DNA from: Candidatus Saccharimonadota bacterium
GTDB taxonomy: Bacteria > Patescibacteriota > Saccharimonadia > Saccharimonadales > Saccharimonadaceae
Length of the DNA: 64,000 nt
Direction: 5' to 3'
Assembly: GCA_030445265.1 (NCBI GenBank)
Contig: JAUCSC010000001.1
Location: 186,001-250,000, forward strand
The position numbers and the translations under genes were made by a program. Below are positions 13,900 to 42,671 of this stretch, piece by piece. Position 1 is the stretch's first letter. The number at the start of each line of letters is the position of its first letter. Under the pieces are notes generated by a model that saw only the letters and a program-made list of their open reading frames with translations, searched no databases and was not told where the DNA came from.

Positions 13900-15234
13900 T
13901 TAGCGGCCCATCAGAGCACGGCGGCTCGTGATGTAGTAACCGAGGCTTGCAACAATCGATCCTGCACCGAGGAAGCTGAGGACGGCTTCACCTGCACCAG
14001 TCGTTGGAAGTTCTGAAGGTGTTTCAGTCTTCACTGGAGTGGTAGGCTTTGTAGGTGTTGTAGGGGTCGTTGGAGTGACAGGTGTTTCCTTACAGTAAGG
14101 GCTGTTCTTCGGGAGGTTTTCCTTACCCTTGACAGCACATTTCTCGACTGGGGTCTCACACTTTTTCGTCACGACAATTTCAGCGGTGTCTTCTTTTGAA
14201 CCGACACCGGTCGTTGCTTTAGCAGTGTTAACCAACTTGTTCGTGCCACAGGCAGCGAGTTTGTCGTTAGCAGCTACTTGAGCAGTGAACTTAAGGTAGG
14301 CATCACCACCACCGAGGAATCCACCAATGTTCATACCGCCAGCAGTAATGCCGTCAGCAGTTTGCTTGGTGCCTGCAGAGTTGTGGAGGTAAGTACTACC
14401 AGCAACATATGTCATGCCAGTAGGAAGTACGTCTTTGATCACAACGTCTTTAAGCTGTGCACCACCAGTGTTCTTAAAGTAGATTTGGTAATCAACCTTT
14501 GAACCAGGAGTGGTAGTGACGCTTTCTTTGAAGGTCTTATCTGTTGAACCGTTAAGGCGTACAGTCTTCTGAACGTCAAAGTCAGATGTTAACGCTTTGA
14601 CCTTGAAGGTAACAAAGCCATCATACTTGAAACAGCCAGGAATCTTACCGTCAAGCTTGTCGTATCCGAGCTTTGCACCAGTACTAACGACGCTGTCACC
14701 GAGGGGTGTACCACTCGTGAAAACCTTATTGGTGTACTGGGCAGAACCTTCGAGGTAGTCGAGCTGGAAGTTTGAGGTGCTGTTGAAGACAGCTTGGTCC
14801 CAAACTTGCTTTGGGTCTGCATTACTTGACGCTAGGTAGCCATCAACCTGGATACGCTTTGCGCTTTGTGATGGAACGTTGAACTTTGCTGTGACGTCTT
14901 CGGCAACAAGGTTCAGGTTTGCTGAGGCGTTGTTGTGGACGTACATACGGACGTAGTATTCTTTACCGTTCTGAACGGTAATATCATCTGTCCAGCCGCC
15001 AGCATTGGTGTTGGCAGCATCTTTGATGGTAACGAAGTTTCGTTCGTCGCCGTAGTTAGGGTTGTTTGTGATTGAGTTGAACGTGACCTTTGTAGCCGGG
15101 TGTTCAATGGTATAGGTATCGCGACTTGGTCCCCAAGCAAAAACAGCTGCAGGTACGATGATTGCGGCAGCAACCATGGCAACAACGGCGTTAAGCTTTG
15201 GAGCACGTCGCAAAAGTGACGTTACTGTCTTCAT
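13900..15234 (-). CDS. Secreted surface protein with DUF11-like repeat and LPXTG-type sorting signal
   Basis: N-terminal signal/TM; GSKVDYQIYFKNTGGAQLKDVVIKDVLPTGMTYVAGS; C-term ELPTTGAGEAVLSFLGAGSIVASLGYYITSRRALMGR; SD AAGGAGAA. Confidence 0.85.
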   Translation of the reverse strand: MKTVTSLLRRAPKLNAVVAMVAAAIIVPAAVFAWGPSRDTYTIEHPATKVTFNSITNNPNYGDERNFVTIKDAANTNAGGWTDDITVQNGKEYYVRMYVHNNASANLNLVAEDVTAKFNVPSQSAKRIQVDGYLASSNADPKQVWDQAVFNSTSNFQLDYLEGSAQYTNKVFTSGTPLGDSVVSTGAKLGYDKLDGKIPGCFKYDGFVTFKVKALTSDFDVQKTVRLNGSTDKTFKESVTTTPGSKVDYQIYFKNTGGAQLKDVVIKDVLPTGMTYVAGSTYLHNSAGTKQTADGITAGGMNIGGFLGGGDAYLKFTAQVAANDKLAACGTNKLVNTAKATTGVGSKEDTAEIVVTKKCETPVEKCAVKGKENLPKNSPYCKETPVTPTTPTTPTKPTTPVKTETPSELPTTGAGEAVLSFLGAGSIVASLGYYITSRRALMGR

Positions 15235-15320
15235 GACAATTCTCCTTTTGATTCATCTCGCAGATAGAATCAATTACTTATTTAATTAATACGATTGTTG
15301 AAGCCGATTTTTTAACCGCC

Positions 15321-15353
15321 GACAAATCAGATCATTACAACAGGTGCATGTCC
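15321..15353 (+). repeat. Left copy of imperfect inverted repeat flanking two GC-rich genes
   Basis: GACAAATCAGATCATTACAACAGGTGCATGTCC; matches reverse complement of 17764-17792 with one mismatch and a 4-nt indel. Confidence 0.8.
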
Positions 15354-15466
15354 GAGTAGTAATCCATAAAGGATCAGGACTCATACGTACCGCCTCGAAC
15401 CGTGAACACAAATGTGCTCAAACAGGAGAAGGTAATAACTTTGCTACATCATTGTGATGAACCGAG

Positions 15467-15501
15467 CGAGAGGGGTGGCGGTGAAGCCACCCCTCTCTGG
15501 G
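15467..15501. other. Strong GC-rich hairpin at the 3' end of the 15513-16583 gene
   Basis: GAGAGGGGTGGC...GCCACCCCTCTC stem; no clear T-tract, so atypical as a terminator. Confidence 0.6.
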
Positions 15502-15512
15502 GAGATCAGGTA

Positions 15513-16583
15513 CTACCAGCCTTGGTCCACCGGAGTGGACTCGGTCTGTTCCTGATTCTCGGTCACTGTGCCCGCACCGGACTCGTCGGACTCCTGTACG
15601 GATTCCTCGTGAGACTGCTCGGTCTGCTGGTTCTGCTGCTGGGCAGCTTCTTCAGCCTTCTGAGCATCCTGTTGAGGATCCTGCTGGTAGCCCTTCGAAT
15701 CGGTCGCGCCGTCGTTGGTGTTGACGGAGTGTTGCGGGTTGGGCTCGTCCTTGATCCAGTCGGGAACCGCGGGGTTCTGCGACGTGCTCTCGGACGGCTT
15801 CTTCGGGACGGTCGTCGGTGTGGGCGTGGGCGTCGGCTTCGGCTGTTCCGTCGTCTTGGTAGGCGTCGGAGTAGGCGTGGGCTTCGGCTTGCAGTCCTCC
15901 TGGCACTCGGCCTTCGGAACGTCCGGTACCGGCTTGATCCAGTTGTTCTGTGCGCCGCAGTCCAGGCGCAGCTTGACGACCTTGCCTTCGAGGTGTGTGA
16001 ACACCACGTTGGTTCCGTCGTGAAGCGTCTTGCCCTGCTTGGTGAGAACACCGCCGTGATCATCGGATTCCATGTACAGCGTCGGCGTGCCGGCGGGGAC
16101 ATCTTCGATGGTCACGGTTGAGGCGTCCTCGAAGGACTCCATCTCCTTGACAACCGAACCCCAGAGGGCACGGTCATCGATCAGCTCCTTGGTGAAGGCG
16201 TCGATCTCGGAGTAGGCGACCTTGCGATCGGTCAGTCCGGCAGCCGACCAGTCCGCGTAGTGCGCGGCGGTCAGAGCCGGATCGGCCTTGCCGTCCTCAC
16301 CACACGAGCGGCGCTCGTGCAGTTCGGCACGGATCTCGTCCGCGTCTTCCGACTTGATTGCTGGCCCGAAGGCCAGCGGTGAGTCCTTGTCCCCGTGAAG
16401 GGAGTAGAAGTACACCTTGCAGTCTTCGGAGGTGGACGATCCGCCGTCACCGGTGGTGTCGTCATCGGCGTTGGCGTTGCCGCTTGTGCCGATGGCGACT
16501 GACGTGAGGCCCACGCCAGCGACTACGACTGCTGCTGCGAGCAGGAGCAGTCCGCTAGCCGTTCTTTTTCTTCCGATGGCCAT
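15513..16583 (-). CDS. GC-rich secreted/anchored protein with Pro-Thr repeats and Q/E-rich C-terminus, unknown family
   Basis: SD AGGAAGGAGG upstream; N-terminal hydrophobic signal segment; KPTPTPTPTKTTEQPKPTPTPTPT; strong G/C third-position bias. Confidence 0.8.
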   Translation of the reverse strand: MAIGRKRTASGLLLLAAAVVVAGVGLTSVAIGTSGNANADDDTTGDGGSSTSEDCKVYFYSLHGDKDSPLAFGPAIKSEDADEIRAELHERRSCGEDGKADPALTAAHYADWSAAGLTDRKVAYSEIDAFTKELIDDRALWGSVVKEMESFEDASTVTIEDVPAGTPTLYMESDDHGGVLTKQGKTLHDGTNVVFTHLEGKVVKLRLDCGAQNNWIKPVPDVPKAECQEDCKPKPTPTPTPTKTTEQPKPTPTPTPTTVPKKPSESTSQNPAVPDWIKDEPNPQHSVNTNDGATDSKGYQQDPQQDAQKAEEAAQQQNQQTEQSHEESVQESDESGAGTVTENQEQTESTPVDQGW

Positions 16584-16598
16584 GTGGCCACCTCCTTC

Positions 16599-17576
16599 CT
16601 AGGACGTCCGGCGAGCTTGAGAGCTCACCGGGGTAGGGGTGGTCGCAACCGGCGTCGATGACGCCTGCTGCGGGAGAGGCCTGGTAGGGGCTTCGTCCGA
16701 TGTAGTAGTCGCCGACGTTGCTTCGGTCTGCTTCCGCGGTACGAAGAGTACCAGGAGAGCGGCCGTGACGAGGAAGGCGACGACGCTGAGCCAGAGGGAG
16801 ACCCACGCAGGATCATCGTGGAGCGAGATGTTGATGCTCGTTCCCGGGATCTTGAGCGTGGAGTCGGGCAGTCTGACGACCAGACGAACGAAGATGTAGA
16901 CCAGTACTCCGATGAGTAGGGCGATGGCCCATACCCACCAGGGCGGCGGAGAATCCGTCGTCGTGGTGCGCTGAACTCGCTTGATGCCCGTTTCGACCTT
17001 CTGCAGCCGAACTTCGTGGTCCAGGACCATGGGCCTGATCTCGGTCATCTGTTGTTCGAGAGTCGAAACCCTCTGCTGCAGTTCGCCCGAGAAGGCCTCC
17101 ATTTCACTGCCAACTTGGCGGATCGTGGCGGCGGCTTCCGCCTTCTTCACCGGGTCGGTAGTGCCGTTGTAGGCATCACCGGCGATGAGGAACTCCCTAC
17201 GGAGCTCCTCGAGACGCGCCTTGGCCGTGGTGGCCGCGGACTGGTCTTCGTCGCTGGGGAGGAAGATGGTCGTGCCGGCTGCTTCGCGCTCGAGGCGGTT
17301 GGCCTCGAGGTTCGTGAGCTCGTTGATCAGCGCGGTGGAGGCCTTGAGGAACGCGGCGAACCGCGCGGCTTCGAGGTTGACTCCCTCCTTGCTGTTCGGG
17401 CGAACGTCCTTGCGGGGTTCGCTGGGCAGCACCGGTGGCGTTGAGGGCGTGGTGGTCGCAGGTGTCTGCGGCCTTCTTGTCCTCTGCCTCGACTTGGCGG
17501 GCTGAACCGGTAGTGCTACCGATCCTTGCCGCGTCGTCGTTTCCGTCTTTTTCGTATCAGTGACTGTGGTGGACAT
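16599..17576 (-). CDS. GC-rich two-TM protein with coiled-coil segment, unknown family
   Basis: SD GGAGGAAGG upstream; TM segments WWVWAIALLIGVLVYIFVRLVV and WVSLWLSVVAFLVTAALLVLFV; GC3-rich. Confidence 0.8.
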   Translation of the reverse strand: MSTTVTDTKKTETTTRQGSVALPVQPAKSRQRTRRPQTPATTTPSTPPVLPSEPRKDVRPNSKEGVNLEAARFAAFLKASTALINELTNLEANRLEREAAGTTIFLPSDEDQSAATTAKARLEELRREFLIAGDAYNGTTDPVKKAEAAATIRQVGSEMEAFSGELQQRVSTLEQQMTEIRPMVLDHEVRLQKVETGIKRVQRTTTTDSPPPWWVWAIALLIGVLVYIFVRLVVRLPDSTLKIPGTSINISLHDDPAWVSLWLSVVAFLVTAALLVLFVPRKQTEATSATTTSDEAPTRPLPQQASSTPVATTPTPVSSQARRTS

Positions 17577-17763
17577 TGACTTTTCCTTCCTCCGAGGGAG
17601 TGTTGCGATAGCGGATGCTATGGATAACTGTCCCGCGGGTCGGGATCAGTAACTCGGTTAACCACCCTTGTTATATCTTGATTAACCAGGTTACTGATCT
17701 CGCGGAAAAGTGAATGTCTCGTGTGTAGCAAAGTGCGTGTAGACGTGCTAAAAGAGCACATCA

Positions 17764-17792
17764 GGACATGCACTGTAATGATCTGACTTGTC
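17764..17792 (-). repeat. Right copy of imperfect inverted repeat
   Basis: Minus strand reads GACAAGTCAGATCATTACAGTGCATGTCC. Confidence 0.8.
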
Positions 17793-17843
17793 AATGCACC
17801 TCTCTCGAATGGGGTCCTCACACCACGTCCGATTGATAGTATT

Positions 17844-17872
17844 AATGTATCACAAAAGTGCTAAAAAGTCAA
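17844..17872 (-). promoter_or_regulatory. Sigma70-type promoter of the 17576->15513 operon
   Basis: Minus strand TTGACT-17 nt-TACATT. Confidence 0.7.
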
Positions 17873-17969
17873 TACTTTACATCATATAGCAACCAAAACC
17901 ACAAGCGCTTTCTAACAACCACCAGATATAGCGTTATAAACGTGCCGACACCCCTATATTGTCATAAAT

Positions 17970-17998
17970 TTGACATGAATGCCGATAAGGTATATATT
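17970..17998 (+). promoter_or_regulatory. Sigma70-type promoter of GC-rich gene 18060-18401
   Basis: TTGACA (17970-17975), 17-nt spacer, TATATT (17993-17998). Confidence 0.75.
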
Positions 17999-18059
17999 CC
18001 ACAGTTATTGCAGCCAGGAACGGGTCTTGGATAACTGCAACTGCGAAAGGGGGAGTGAC

Positions 18060-18401
18060 TTGTCAAAGTCACTCGACAAAGAAGTGTTCGAGATCGACCC
18101 CACCATGACGGTGTGGTTCGACCGCGAGCGCATCATACTCGGCTACGAAGCCGAGGAACTGCACAAGAGGGACGCTCAGCAGGCGCTCCTGGAGGAGACC
18201 TGCGACAAGCTCGGTGGTGAGAAGGTACCCGACCTGCTCATCTACCTGCTCGAGCAGAAGGTGTCGATCCAGCACGTGATCGCGCCGATCAAGCGGTACA
18301 ACGGCTACGTCTACCGGGTGTCACTCCTCTTCTGCATGAAGCGGCTCAAGGTCACGACGCCGGCCACTGTGGCCGCGTTCCTGACTCCTGCGGGAGTCTA
18401 G
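18060..18401 (+). CDS. GC-rich small protein, unknown family; probable TTG start
   Basis: In frame with ORF 17979-18401, but the promoter lies at 17970-17998 and SD GGGGGAG precedes TTG at 18060; product MSKSLDKEVFEIDPTMTVWFDRERIILGYEAEE... Confidence 0.72.
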   Translation: MSKSLDKEVFEIDPTMTVWFDRERIILGYEAEELHKRDAQQALLEETCDKLGGEKVPDLLIYLLEQKVSIQHVIAPIKRYNGYVYRVSLLFCMKRLKVTTPATVAAFLTPAGV

Positions 18402-18418
18402 ACCAGCCCACGATCAAA

Positions 18419-18465
18419 GGTGGGGCGAGACAAGTTGAAGCTTCGGCCTCCTCTCTCGCCCCACC
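18419..18465 (+). other. 12-bp GC-rich hairpin after the 18060-18401 gene
   Basis: GGTGGGGCGAGA...TCTCGCCCCACC perfect inverted repeat. Confidence 0.7.
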
Positions 18466-18474
18466 CGGAGCAAC

Positions 18475-18506
18475 ATCATACTCACCCGCACGAGTATGAT
18501 TTTTTT
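18475..18506 (+). terminator. Intrinsic terminator
   Basis: ATCATACTC-acccgcac-GAGTATGAT followed by TTTTTT. Confidence 0.88.
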
Positions 18507-18507
18507 A

Positions 18508-18536
18508 TTGACTTTACGTCGTACTCACTTTATAAA
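18508..18536 (+). promoter_or_regulatory. Sigma70-type promoter of GC-rich gene 18608-19057
   Basis: TTGACT (18508-18513), 17-nt spacer, TATAAA (18531-18536). Confidence 0.72.
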
Positions 18537-18607
18537 AAGGGCAGTAGAAGCGATTTGTCAGCGCTTTTGCATATCCCAATCCAATCAACCACCGAGAGGA
18601 TGGTCGT

Positions 18608-19057
18608 ATGACCATTAACGGATCATCACGAACCCGATCGAAGAACAAGAAAGGAAAAGGAAACACCAGCAGCGGCACAAGGCGCATTCCTGCCAAGGCG
18701 ATTCGACTGGCTGTCGACGTGCTCGCCGAGCACCTCAAGGCAACCGAGTGCGTCGTCCACGCCACCCGCGACACGCTGATTCGGCACCTGGCTGGCATGT
18801 TCCGCACCGTGCGGGGCATCGGCAGGGACTTCCGCGAGAAGATCATCACCCTTCGCCTCGCACTCGTGCAGATGCGGAAGGCTGATGAAGTCGCGTGGGC
18901 CGAGACCATCGACGGGCAAGCACTCCTGCTACAGGGCCCCAAGCCGCGCCAACTGCAGCCGAGGAAGGAACCGAGCAACATGCACGCCAAGAGGCGTACG
19001 CGTTCGTTCGTAAACAACCCCGGGCGACCGCGGACCGTGGTGATGTCCGCAGCATGA
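18608..19057 (+). CDS. GC-rich basic protein, unknown family
   Basis: SD GAGAGGAT upstream of ATG; GC3-rich; highly basic ends. Confidence 0.75.
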   Translation: MTINGSSRTRSKNKKGKGNTSSGTRRIPAKAIRLAVDVLAEHLKATECVVHATRDTLIRHLAGMFRTVRGIGRDFREKIITLRLALVQMRKADEVAWAETIDGQALLLQGPKPRQLQPRKEPSNMHAKRRTRSFVNNPGRPRTVVMSAA

Positions 19058-19060
19058 CTT

Positions 19061-19140
19061 CCTTCGGTGGAGAACGTTAGAAGCGTAGATGAGAAGCCAG
19101 ATCACGGTGACTCTCCTACCCCTCACGTTCTCCGCCGAGG
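19061..19140 (+). other. Long imperfect hairpin after the GC-rich gene
   Basis: CCTTCGGTGGAGAACGT (19061-19077) pairs with ACGTTCTCCGCCGAGG (19125-19140). Confidence 0.55.
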
Positions 19141-19297: not shown

Positions 19298-19372
19298 GGT
19301 CCCGTCGTCTAGCGGTTAGGACACCAGGTTTTCATCCTGGCAATCGGAGTTCGATTCTCCGCGGGATCACCA
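19298..19372 (+). tRNA. tRNA-Glu (anticodon TTC), CCA encoded
   Basis: GGTCCCG...CGGGATCACCA; anticodon stem CCAGG/CCTGG with loop TTTTCAT. Confidence 0.93.
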
Positions 19373-19430: not shown

Positions 19431-19949
19431 TTACGGGAGCGGCGTTGCAGGCGGGTCAACAGGCACCGGAGGGATAACTATTGGATCATCGGCTGGTGGA
19501 TCGGCCGGAGGCGTGGGATCAGGAGTAGGCGTTGGGGTTGGCTCTGGGGCTGGTGTGGGTGCTGGGGTTGGCTGCGTCGGTGTCGACGTAGAGCCGGTCG
19601 AGGTAGATGGAGAAGTCGAAGCTTTAGGAGCGGCGGTCCATGTCGGGCTCGATGTAGCCGGTGTCGTAGATCCACTATTTGTCATGGAGTCGGCGGCAGT
19701 AGCTGGACTTTGCGTAAACTCGCCTGGCGTAGAAGTGGCCGTACTTGCACCTTGAACTGAGCCAGCGCTGTCCTTACTCGATGAAGGAGTGGTCGCGGAG
19801 GGGTTCGATGATGAAGTAGTATTATCCTTGGTAAGGCCTAATACATTTAACATGGTAAGCATACTAAAGAAGCCAACTATGAACACGGTCATACCAGTAA
19901 TTGCCACTCGATTCTGACGCAGGGGGATACCTTTGAGGTATGTTTTCAT
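19431..19949 (-). CDS. Single-TM Ser/Thr/Pro-rich surface protein
   Basis: MKTYLKGIPLRQNRVAITGMTVFIVGFFSMLTMLNVLGL then PT repeats; SD AAGGAGAT precedes ATG at 19949. Confidence 0.7.
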   Translation of the reverse strand: MKTYLKGIPLRQNRVAITGMTVFIVGFFSMLTMLNVLGLTKDNTTSSSNPSATTPSSSKDSAGSVQGASTATSTPGEFTQSPATAADSMTNSGSTTPATSSPTWTAAPKASTSPSTSTGSTSTPTQPTPAPTPAPEPTPTPTPDPTPPADPPADDPIVIPPVPVDPPATPLP

Positions 19950-20100
19950 GACAATGATCTCCTTATTTCTTGCTTCATTATAGTCGTACGGATCAAATAT
20001 AACTGTAAGATAAGTCACACATGACATAGATTAGCGCACTCTGCGATAATATGTCAGTTCTGATCGGTACTTAGCGCAAAAAGTGATACAATTATCAGTT

Positions 20101-21516
20101 ATGGGAATCATCTTCAAACGGACAAAAATTCTGGCTACGGTCGGACCTGCAACAAACACACCAGAAAAAATCGAACAACTTATCATTGCTGGGGTAAATG
20201 GCTTCCGGCTAAACTTTAGTCATGGTGATTACGCTGAGCGTGAAGAGCAAATCAAATGGATCAGGGAGGCAAGTCGAAAAATCGGTAAACCAGTCGCCGT
20301 TCTCCAAGACCTCCAAGGGCCAAAGATCCGATTAGGGAGCTTGAAAGAAAATACGCCAGTTAAAAAAGGCGATGTATTGACGCTTGATTTTGCCGCTGAG
20401 CATGATGGTTTGACACTGCCTGTGCAATACAACCTCGCTGAAAAGGTGAAACCTGGTGAACCGATATATATCTTTGATGGTAAGATTCGCACGACTGTCC
20501 TTGAGGTCAGCTCCGAAACTGCTGTGAGATTACGGGTTGAAAACGACGGTATGTTGATGAGCAAGAAGGGTATCAATCTACCGGAAACAGACTTCGCCGG
20601 TGATATCTTGACGCCGAAAGATTTGAAGGATATTGAATTTGGCCTGACGCAGGATATTGATTACGTTGCGCTCAGTTTTGTCCAAAGCCCTGATGATATT
20701 AATAATCTTCGTCAAATCCTCGTGGCGGGTGGCTCATCGGCGCAAATTATCGCTAAGGTTGAAACAAAAGCTGCAGTTGCTGACGGTGTCATGGAAGAGA
20801 TTGTTAAAGCCAGCGACGGGGTGATGGTCGCTCGTGGTGACTTGGCGGTCGAGGCGGGTGCTGAGATCGTGCCAATCGTGCAGCGGCGGTTGATTGCCCT
20901 TTGCCGCAAACACAGTACGTTAAGTATCGTTGCGACACAGATGATGGCGAGCATGGTGGACAGCCCTGAGCCGACTCGCGCAGAAGTCAGTGATGTGGCT
21001 AACGCCGTTATTCAAGGCGCCGATACGGTCATGTTGTCTGATGAAACGGCCAACGGTTCTTATCCGCTTGAGACAGTCGCGGCGATGAAGCGAGTCATAC
21101 TTTATACGCAAGATAATGTACCGGTCGCACGCCTTGAAGATCATATGGCAGCCGAACACACACAGCGCGATGCGATCAGTTCTGCCGCTGTCTCGCTTGC
21201 CGAACAGCTGAACGTCGATGCCATTATTGCCGAGACCAAGTCGGGCGCGACTGCGGCGTCGATGGCCGCTCACCGGCCTAACTTACCGATTATTAGTGTG
21301 ACGAGCGATATGCGTTCAGCACAGCAACTCGGTCTGAGTTATGCGAACCGCAGTTATGTTCGGCCCGATGGTGATGTGGCAGGCCTTGATTTGGCCCGTG
21401 AGCTAAAAGCCAGCGGCTTATTCGGTGAAGGGCCAGCCACGGTCATTATCGTCAGCGGCCGACAGCCTGGAATCGCCGGAACAACTGACACAATCAAAGT
21501 TCGCATGCTAGAATAA
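20101..21516 (+). CDS. pyk: Pyruvate kinase
   Basis: RTKILATVGPAT, GFRLNFSHGD, VAVLQDLQGPKIR, GVMVARGDLAVE, IVATQMM, DTVMLSDETANGSYP. Confidence 0.96.
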   Translation: MGIIFKRTKILATVGPATNTPEKIEQLIIAGVNGFRLNFSHGDYAEREEQIKWIREASRKIGKPVAVLQDLQGPKIRLGSLKENTPVKKGDVLTLDFAAEHDGLTLPVQYNLAEKVKPGEPIYIFDGKIRTTVLEVSSETAVRLRVENDGMLMSKKGINLPETDFAGDILTPKDLKDIEFGLTQDIDYVALSFVQSPDDINNLRQILVAGGSSAQIIAKVETKAAVADGVMEEIVKASDGVMVARGDLAVEAGAEIVPIVQRRLIALCRKHSTLSIVATQMMASMVDSPEPTRAEVSDVANAVIQGADTVMLSDETANGSYPLETVAAMKRVILYTQDNVPVARLEDHMAAEHTQRDAISSAAVSLAEQLNVDAIIAETKSGATAASMAAHRPNLPIISVTSDMRSAQQLGLSYANRSYVRPDGDVAGLDLARELKASGLFGEGPATVIIVSGRQPGIAGTTDTIKVRMLE

Positions 21517-42404: not shown

Positions 42405-42671
42405 TGTTACAGCGCATTATGATCTGTCCTTAATACGGAAATATCCGTATCTGCGAGTGGGAAATCAGTCATACATGAGCCTGCCATAAATGTCGCACGG
42501 GTATCAGAGCAACGATATTAATAAATAACAGGTCGACACGTACCCCTTTCTCACGCAAGTAGAAGTAAGACAAATTAAGGTAGAAGCCCTTGTAGTAATA
42601 CGAGCGGCAGGAGAACGATTATTCGTAATCAGATCACGACGAGCCATGCTCATCAAGGATCGACTGCAGCA

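Follow-up and report, generated by a model that had tools for sequence, protein, structure and literature searches.

A probable RNA-bounded hypervariable cassette locus in a Saccharimonadaceae genome

Genes and features of the slot

The window analyzed here is a stretch of 64,000 nucleotides (bases 186001–250000) of the 645,641-bp single-contig genome of a Candidatus Saccharimonadota bacterium (handle G000; estimated completeness 77.6%). It contains a slot, located between a surface-protein gene and a tRNA-Glu gene, that holds four GC-rich open reading frames (ORFs): a two-gene operon, or cassette, encoding P0002 and P0001, and the small divergent genes of P0003 and P0004. An earlier note on this DNA had described four such ORFs in self-contained transcription units, and all four are present as described. 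G-numbers below denote compared genomes, one genome per species, and L-numbers denote fetched loci. The features of the slot, in window positions, are as follows, where GC3 is the GC content at third codon positions.

13900..15234, minus strand: DUF11 surface protein with an LPxTG-like end, anchor of the slot (Pfam DUF11, E=4.7e-9; found in 17 of 17 genus genomes searched)
15322..15353, plus strand: IR-R, inverted copy of a 28-nt motif with a 4-nt insertion, in the 3′ trailer and ahead of the surface gene (alignment; pairs with IR-L with covariation)
15354..15512, minus strand: structured 3′ trailer with a GC-rich 12-bp stem at 15468–15497 (fold z = −4.5)
15513..16583, minus strand: P0001, predicted secreted protein, second cassette gene, GC3 0.79 (ORF and comparison with relatives)
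16599..17576, minus strand: P0002, coiled-coil membrane protein with two predicted transmembrane (TM) stretches, first cassette gene, GC3 0.77 (ORF and composition)
17640..17806, minus strand: structured leader RNA, model R1, hairpin arms 17641–17664 and 17679–17702 (conserved; R1 match of 114.7 bits)
17764..17791, minus strand: IR-L, the 28-nt motif ACAAGTCAGATCATTACAGTGCATGTCC in the 5′ leader (pattern search and alignment; near-invariant)
17844..17872, minus strand: promoter of the cassette operon, TTGACT-17-TACATT with extended TG (promoter scan and 12-genome alignment; conserved in the genus)
17895..17911, minus strand: AAAGC..TTGTG.TTT element upstream of the −35 box, a possible operator (genus-conserved in the alignment)
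17970..17998, plus strand: divergent promoter, TTGACA-17-TATATT (promoter scan)
18060..18401, plus strand: P0003, small divergent protein of 113 aa with a TTG start, GC3 about 0.8 (ORF)
about 18508..18536, plus strand: promoter of P0004, TTGACT-17-TATAAA (read directly)
18608..19057, plus strand: P0004, small basic helical protein of 149 aa, GC3 0.77 (ORF)
19298..19372, plus strand: tRNA-Glu, adjoining pyk (20083..21516), on the other side of the slot (tRNA found in the window)

The GC-biased third positions reported in the earlier note were borne out by computation. Genes in GC-rich DNA were chosen by the score GC3 minus GC2 (second-position GC), to avoid longest-ORF antisense picks. GC3 is 0.787 for P0001, 0.772 for P0002, 0.82 for P0003 and 0.77 for P0004, compared with about 0.42–0.61 for the remaining window genes and a genome-wide mean of 0.517 (sd 0.066, 613 ORFs of at least 100 aa). 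Three of the four ORFs are within the top seven GC3 values of the genome; P0004 was left out of the ranking, as it is masked by a longer antisense ORF. They form the sole GC3-rich cluster, and the highest GC peak of the whole genome is at 201.5–202.5 kb. The remaining GC3-rich genes of G000 are dispersed singles, including small ORFans and a thyX-like gene. The latter, which resembles a flavin-dependent thymidylate synthase gene and lies outside the window (G000:C1:441248-442009, GC3 0.80), is likely a separate recent import.

The signals that the earlier note had read by eye also hold. Two of its three promoters with 17-bp spacing were returned by the scan; that of P0004 is readable in the sequence, and was unlisted because its last base is not T. 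The hairpins are real in both the leader (fold z = −3.9) and the trailer, and the tRNA-Glu does lie nearby.

No family in Pfam, PHROG or NCBIfam passed its cut-off for any of the four proteins, in agreement with the earlier failure to recognize a product family, and a sequence search of the PDB returned no meaningful match. P0001 consists of an N-terminal hydrophobic segment, a head of ∼150 residues with a conserved Cys at its end, a linker rich in proline and threonine (P/T-rich) and a tail of ∼95 residues. Single-sequence AlphaFold2 models were unusable for the P0001 head (predicted local distance difference test, pLDDT, of 37) and too poor to use for P0004 (pLDDT 55). Most genus members have one or two small GC-rich genes diverging from the operon, of which P0003 and P0004 are the G000 versions; neither has a homologue among all fetched loci. 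A winged-helix look of the divergent small proteins was seen by eye only and was not confirmed. The Saccharibacteria identity of the genome is supported by a lysM-TM7 RNA (Rfam RF03005) at 42479–42613 of the window, plus strand, with 93.1 bits.

Variable coding content within conserved flanks

Same-genus relatives carry a two-gene operon at the same place and in the same orientation. One side of the slot is formed by pyk/pgk/tpi, usually with tRNA-Glu, and the other by the DUF11 surface protein and histidine kinases; an equal arrangement beside the same surface protein is found in other genera and families of Saccharimonadales. At the P0002 position, the slot of relatives likewise encodes a membrane or coiled-coil protein, and P0002 is 21% identical (E=2e-5) to its counterpart in the slot of G249, a member of another genus. 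A further P/T-rich secreted protein is encoded between tRNA-Glu and pyk (19431–20027, minus strand), with a background GC3 of 0.45.

The coding content of the slot is highly variable. In the 11 genus members for which both genes were read, BLAST finds any similarity between the slot secreted proteins in 11 of 55 pairs, compared with 55 of 55 pairs (median identity 51%) for the adjacent surface protein. Alleles are mosaic: G008 has its head in common with G009, but not its tail. The head types include one led by P0001, G249 and G053, one by G014, G006 and G010, and one by G008 and G009. The head of P0001 is nearest to that of G249 (51% over 159 aa) and is 31% identical to that of G053, from another family, while its last 95 residues are nearest to its own genus (44–50% to G003 and G009). 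At the DNA level, G014 and G015 are 82.6% identical from −1773 to +216 relative to the motif, show no identity across both coding regions, and are again 86% identical from +1977. The breakpoints indicate that the coding block was replaced while the leader, the trailer and the divergent genes stayed in place, that is, conserved flanks around an interior replaced as a block between relatives, the pattern of a cassette-replacement locus. Whole blocks of cassette sequence are exchanged and single domains reshuffled, even between genera, so that the GC content of a cassette often mismatches that of its genome.

At 18 of 23 loci, the slot gene has a GC3 more than 0.15 higher than its surface-gene neighbor. 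In the other five, all from AT-rich genomes, slot GC3 is native without such an excess. This makes a strict need for high GC unlikely and suggests imported alleles at various stages of amelioration. In G047, from another family, the anomaly is reversed, the equivalent slot gene (L012:8790-10259, GC3 0.31) being AT-richer than its neighbors (∼0.45).

Probable pairing ends of the cassette

The two-gene operon is enclosed by the inverted 28-nt repeat IR-L and IR-R, which the earlier note had overlooked. In 61 genomes, the exact 28-nt pattern occurs in zero to two copies per genome and is confined to this genus, and a reversed control pattern gave no match. Most downstream copies contain an insertion of 1–5 nt, whereas upstream copies do not. 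A search of Rfam over 15200–18050 gave no match up to E=1. As single orientations were seen and the genes are co-directional after the promoter at the elements examined, phase-variable inversion between the repeats was rejected.

The leader forms a 20-bp hairpin in which 16 of the 20 pairs show double-sided compensatory changes and 92.4% of cells are paired; slid versions were 24–54% paired, and none of 500 shuffles was as good. In the trailer stem, six of eight pairs are compensated among relatives. IR-L and IR-R themselves covary: with IR-R chosen by position, 94.3% are paired and six pairs are altered on both sides, compared with 24–37% for slid versions. In a set of 26 elements, where IR-R was taken as the candidate most similar to IR-L, the two arms match better within an element than between elements. 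The permutation p is at most about 0.001 for each of two genera, and one of these genera contributes four elements from a single genome. The within-element covariation speaks for base pairing in cis, whether in RNA or in folded DNA, rather than for a protein site common to both copies. A scan of the operon strand found no U-run terminator before IR-R, so both motifs could share one transcript.

Similar ends are found elsewhere. Model R1 matches 33 of 295 genomes of the order, some weakly, and genomes of the sister genus g49 contain several copies each. The extra loci of g49 (for example rpoC-rpsL and sodA-clpP) hold single small ORFans between IR-L and IR-R; the rpoC-rpsL interval of G000 is only 241 bp and is therefore unoccupied. 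Two genomes of g49, G332 and G314, contain tandem arrays of small ORFan cassettes bounded by IR-L and IR-R (loci L207, L210 and L208), as in integron arrays, in contrast to the single slot of the window. Tight junctions within these arrays place the next IR-L about 48 nt after IR-R and have a TTAACAA core at most boundaries.

Interpretation and relation to known systems

The slot combines fixed flanks and a conserved promoter with a leader and a trailer that are both structured, the trailer bearing the inverted 28-nt motif. Between leader and trailer lies an exchangeable two-gene cassette of a membrane and a secreted protein, with small GC-rich genes diverging from it. The locus is most likely an RNA-bounded hypervariable cassette locus. 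We consider it probable, if well short of certain, that the four genes occupy a hypervariable surface-gene slot whose cassette is swapped through recombination and expressed from an mRNA whose ends pair. Alleles would be exchanged mainly via recombination in the conserved flanks, leader and trailer, and DNA of other Saccharibacteria may supply the incoming alleles. The 5′ and 3′ copies of the motif would base-pair in the transcript and thereby give the cassette mRNA a closed panhandle form, which may protect, process or regulate it as a unit. The membrane-secreted pair, with its lipoprotein-like P/T-tailed member, adjoins a surface protein and kinases and is hypervariable between species, which by analogy points to a surface role in host contact, competition or phage evasion; it would act at the epibiont surface towards host, competitors or phages, under diversifying selection.

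Several points weigh against this reading. The permutations and shuffles ignore relatedness, and choosing IR-R by its similarity to IR-L biases the 26-element permutation, although the bias is small with a single candidate. Gene conversion between the arms could also yield identical double changes. The nucleotide-level swap is documented in one pair (G014/G015) only, and unrelated coding sequence within conserved flanks may in part reflect very fast divergence. The searches run did not find a donor sequence for cassette alleles. Finally, the surface function is deduced only from predicted signals and P/T-rich tails of proteins for which no fold is predictable.

Homologous recombination through the conserved flanks is sufficient to explain the genus of the window; the tandem arrays would be explained by site-specific recombination. 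An integron-like recombinase or a large serine integrase might move the cassettes, with IR-R and IR-L as inverted half-sites joined in a circular cassette and TTAACAA as the crossover core, a scheme that we regard as rather unlikely. It would account for the near-constant spacing in tandem cassettes, and for the TTAACAA-like core that directly follows IR-R in most main-locus elements and precedes IR-L in nearly all. A large serine recombinase gene, read by sequence, is also located just upstream of the leader and on the same strand in G192, G326, G249 and G023, from two genera (loci L179, L181, L214 and L095); among the listed matches to PF07508, only the copy in G023 is slot-adjacent. However, PF07508 is absent from G000, G013 and G015, all of which carry cassettes, so that a large serine recombinase was rejected as the obligatory mover for G000. 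The integron integrase model TIGR02249 gave no match over its cut-off in nine genomes tested. Moreover, the transcript includes IR-L, which lies downstream of the promoter; several extra loci lack the right core; and a recombinase acting in trans does not require the arms to covary within an element. The IR-R/IR-L junctions are palindromic, but their TTAACAA core, as read by eye, appears to misfit the attC 7-mers 5′-RYYYAAC and GTTRRRY-3′. With this integron/Xer-type tyrosine recombinase model, G000 gave no match at all and eight relatives each gave one Xer-like gene below the cut-off; given the completeness of G000, the missing Xer could reflect either a gap or genuine loss.

Less probable still is that a single regulator binds both motif copies and thereby controls the cassette operon and the surface gene. 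The two copies do lie in the operon leader and ahead of the surface gene ATG, respectively, and both are highly conserved. Against this, the two copies share element-specific variants, also in a single genome, where only one set of regulators is present, and the downstream copy is kept after the cassette at L171, L173 and L174, where no surface gene follows.

A one-off acquired island, of prophage, plasmid or host actinobacterial DNA, is very improbable. The earlier note had proposed a discrete acquired module, which stands insofar as these are foreign-looking, self-contained transcription units of unrecognized genes; their GC3 is far off the background, and individual proteins lack homologues in most of the genus. 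It fails as a single insertion, because the slot, promoter, leader, trailer and gene order are kept across the genus and beyond and only the coding content varies, so that synteny largely refutes it. The note had also set vertically inherited orthologues with ordinary functions against acquisition: the position is indeed kept, but the sequences differ and none points to an ordinary function. Nor was a source in a host actinobacterium, plasmid or phage found: P0001 had no match in plasmids and P0002 none in phages, viral contigs gave none and PHROG no credible one, and these searches identified no phage or plasmid hallmark genes or relatives at the slot.

Least probable of all are native genes held GC-rich by codon selection or local GC-biased gene conversion, for although GC3 remains high even in alleles diverged to about 57–61% identity at 4-fold sites, the bias does not match what highly expressed genes of G000 show (ribosomal protein L2 and EF-Tu have a GC3 of 0.45–0.46, on which grounds expression-level codon bias was rejected), five slots have native low GC3, and the leader and trailer in the exchanged region are less GC-rich than the coding block.

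The exchangeable cassette locus favored here resembles several known systems. It shares with integron cassettes (attI/attC/IntI) a promoter ahead of the first cassette, tandem small ORFan cassettes, structured inverted-repeat ends and sharing across lineages. It differs in that no IntI is found above the cut-off, both ends are conserved in primary sequence with the 5′ end within the mRNA leader, and the single slot is a two-gene cassette fixed beside a surface gene. In hypervariable surface loci, cassettes are replaced by homologous recombination between conserved flanks. Conserved flanks, a divergent interior, mosaic alleles and block swaps are common to both, whereas the paired structured leader and trailer, the genome-alien composition and the unrelated proteins in one slot are particular to the present locus. 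The nearest published parallel that we found in the candidate phyla radiation (CPR) is a hypervariable surface gene of a Gracilibacterium with P/T/D repeats (D, aspartate), one N-terminal TM and flanking stem-loops, in which most of the variation is synonymous and the amino-acid repeat stays conserved (PMC6851277). The CPR host, the diversifying surface protein, the N-terminal TM and the stem-loops are alike; however, the locus works differently here, as whole proteins are replaced. In rRNA processing stems, leader and trailer are complementary and are cut by RNase III. The complementarity over more than 20 bp around an RNA unit, repeated in tandem units, is similar, but a protein-coding mRNA is enclosed here and its processing is putative. 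No description of the locus was found in the literature searched on Saccharibacteria and their pangenomes, hypervariable loci, cassettes, integrons and structured RNA, which is not proof of absence.

A broader proposal, which we advance tentatively and do not regard as the probable outcome, is that the Saccharimonadaceae carry undescribed RNA-level mobile cassettes. Their 28-nt leader and trailer ends would pair, and single or arrayed ORFan cassettes would be expressed, processed and possibly mobilized as closed RNA or hairpin-ended units, the main slot serving to diversify the epibiont surface.

To our knowledge, host recognition and escape from host or phage by obligate epibionts such as Saccharibacteria are poorly known. 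A genus-wide slot with block-swapped surface genes is a concrete candidate locus for either, and the paired leader and trailer provide, as model R1, a sequence handle for locating such cassettes in genomes. The locus also raises testable questions about mRNAs with pairing ends and about how foreign genes are acquired and rotated in a very small genome.

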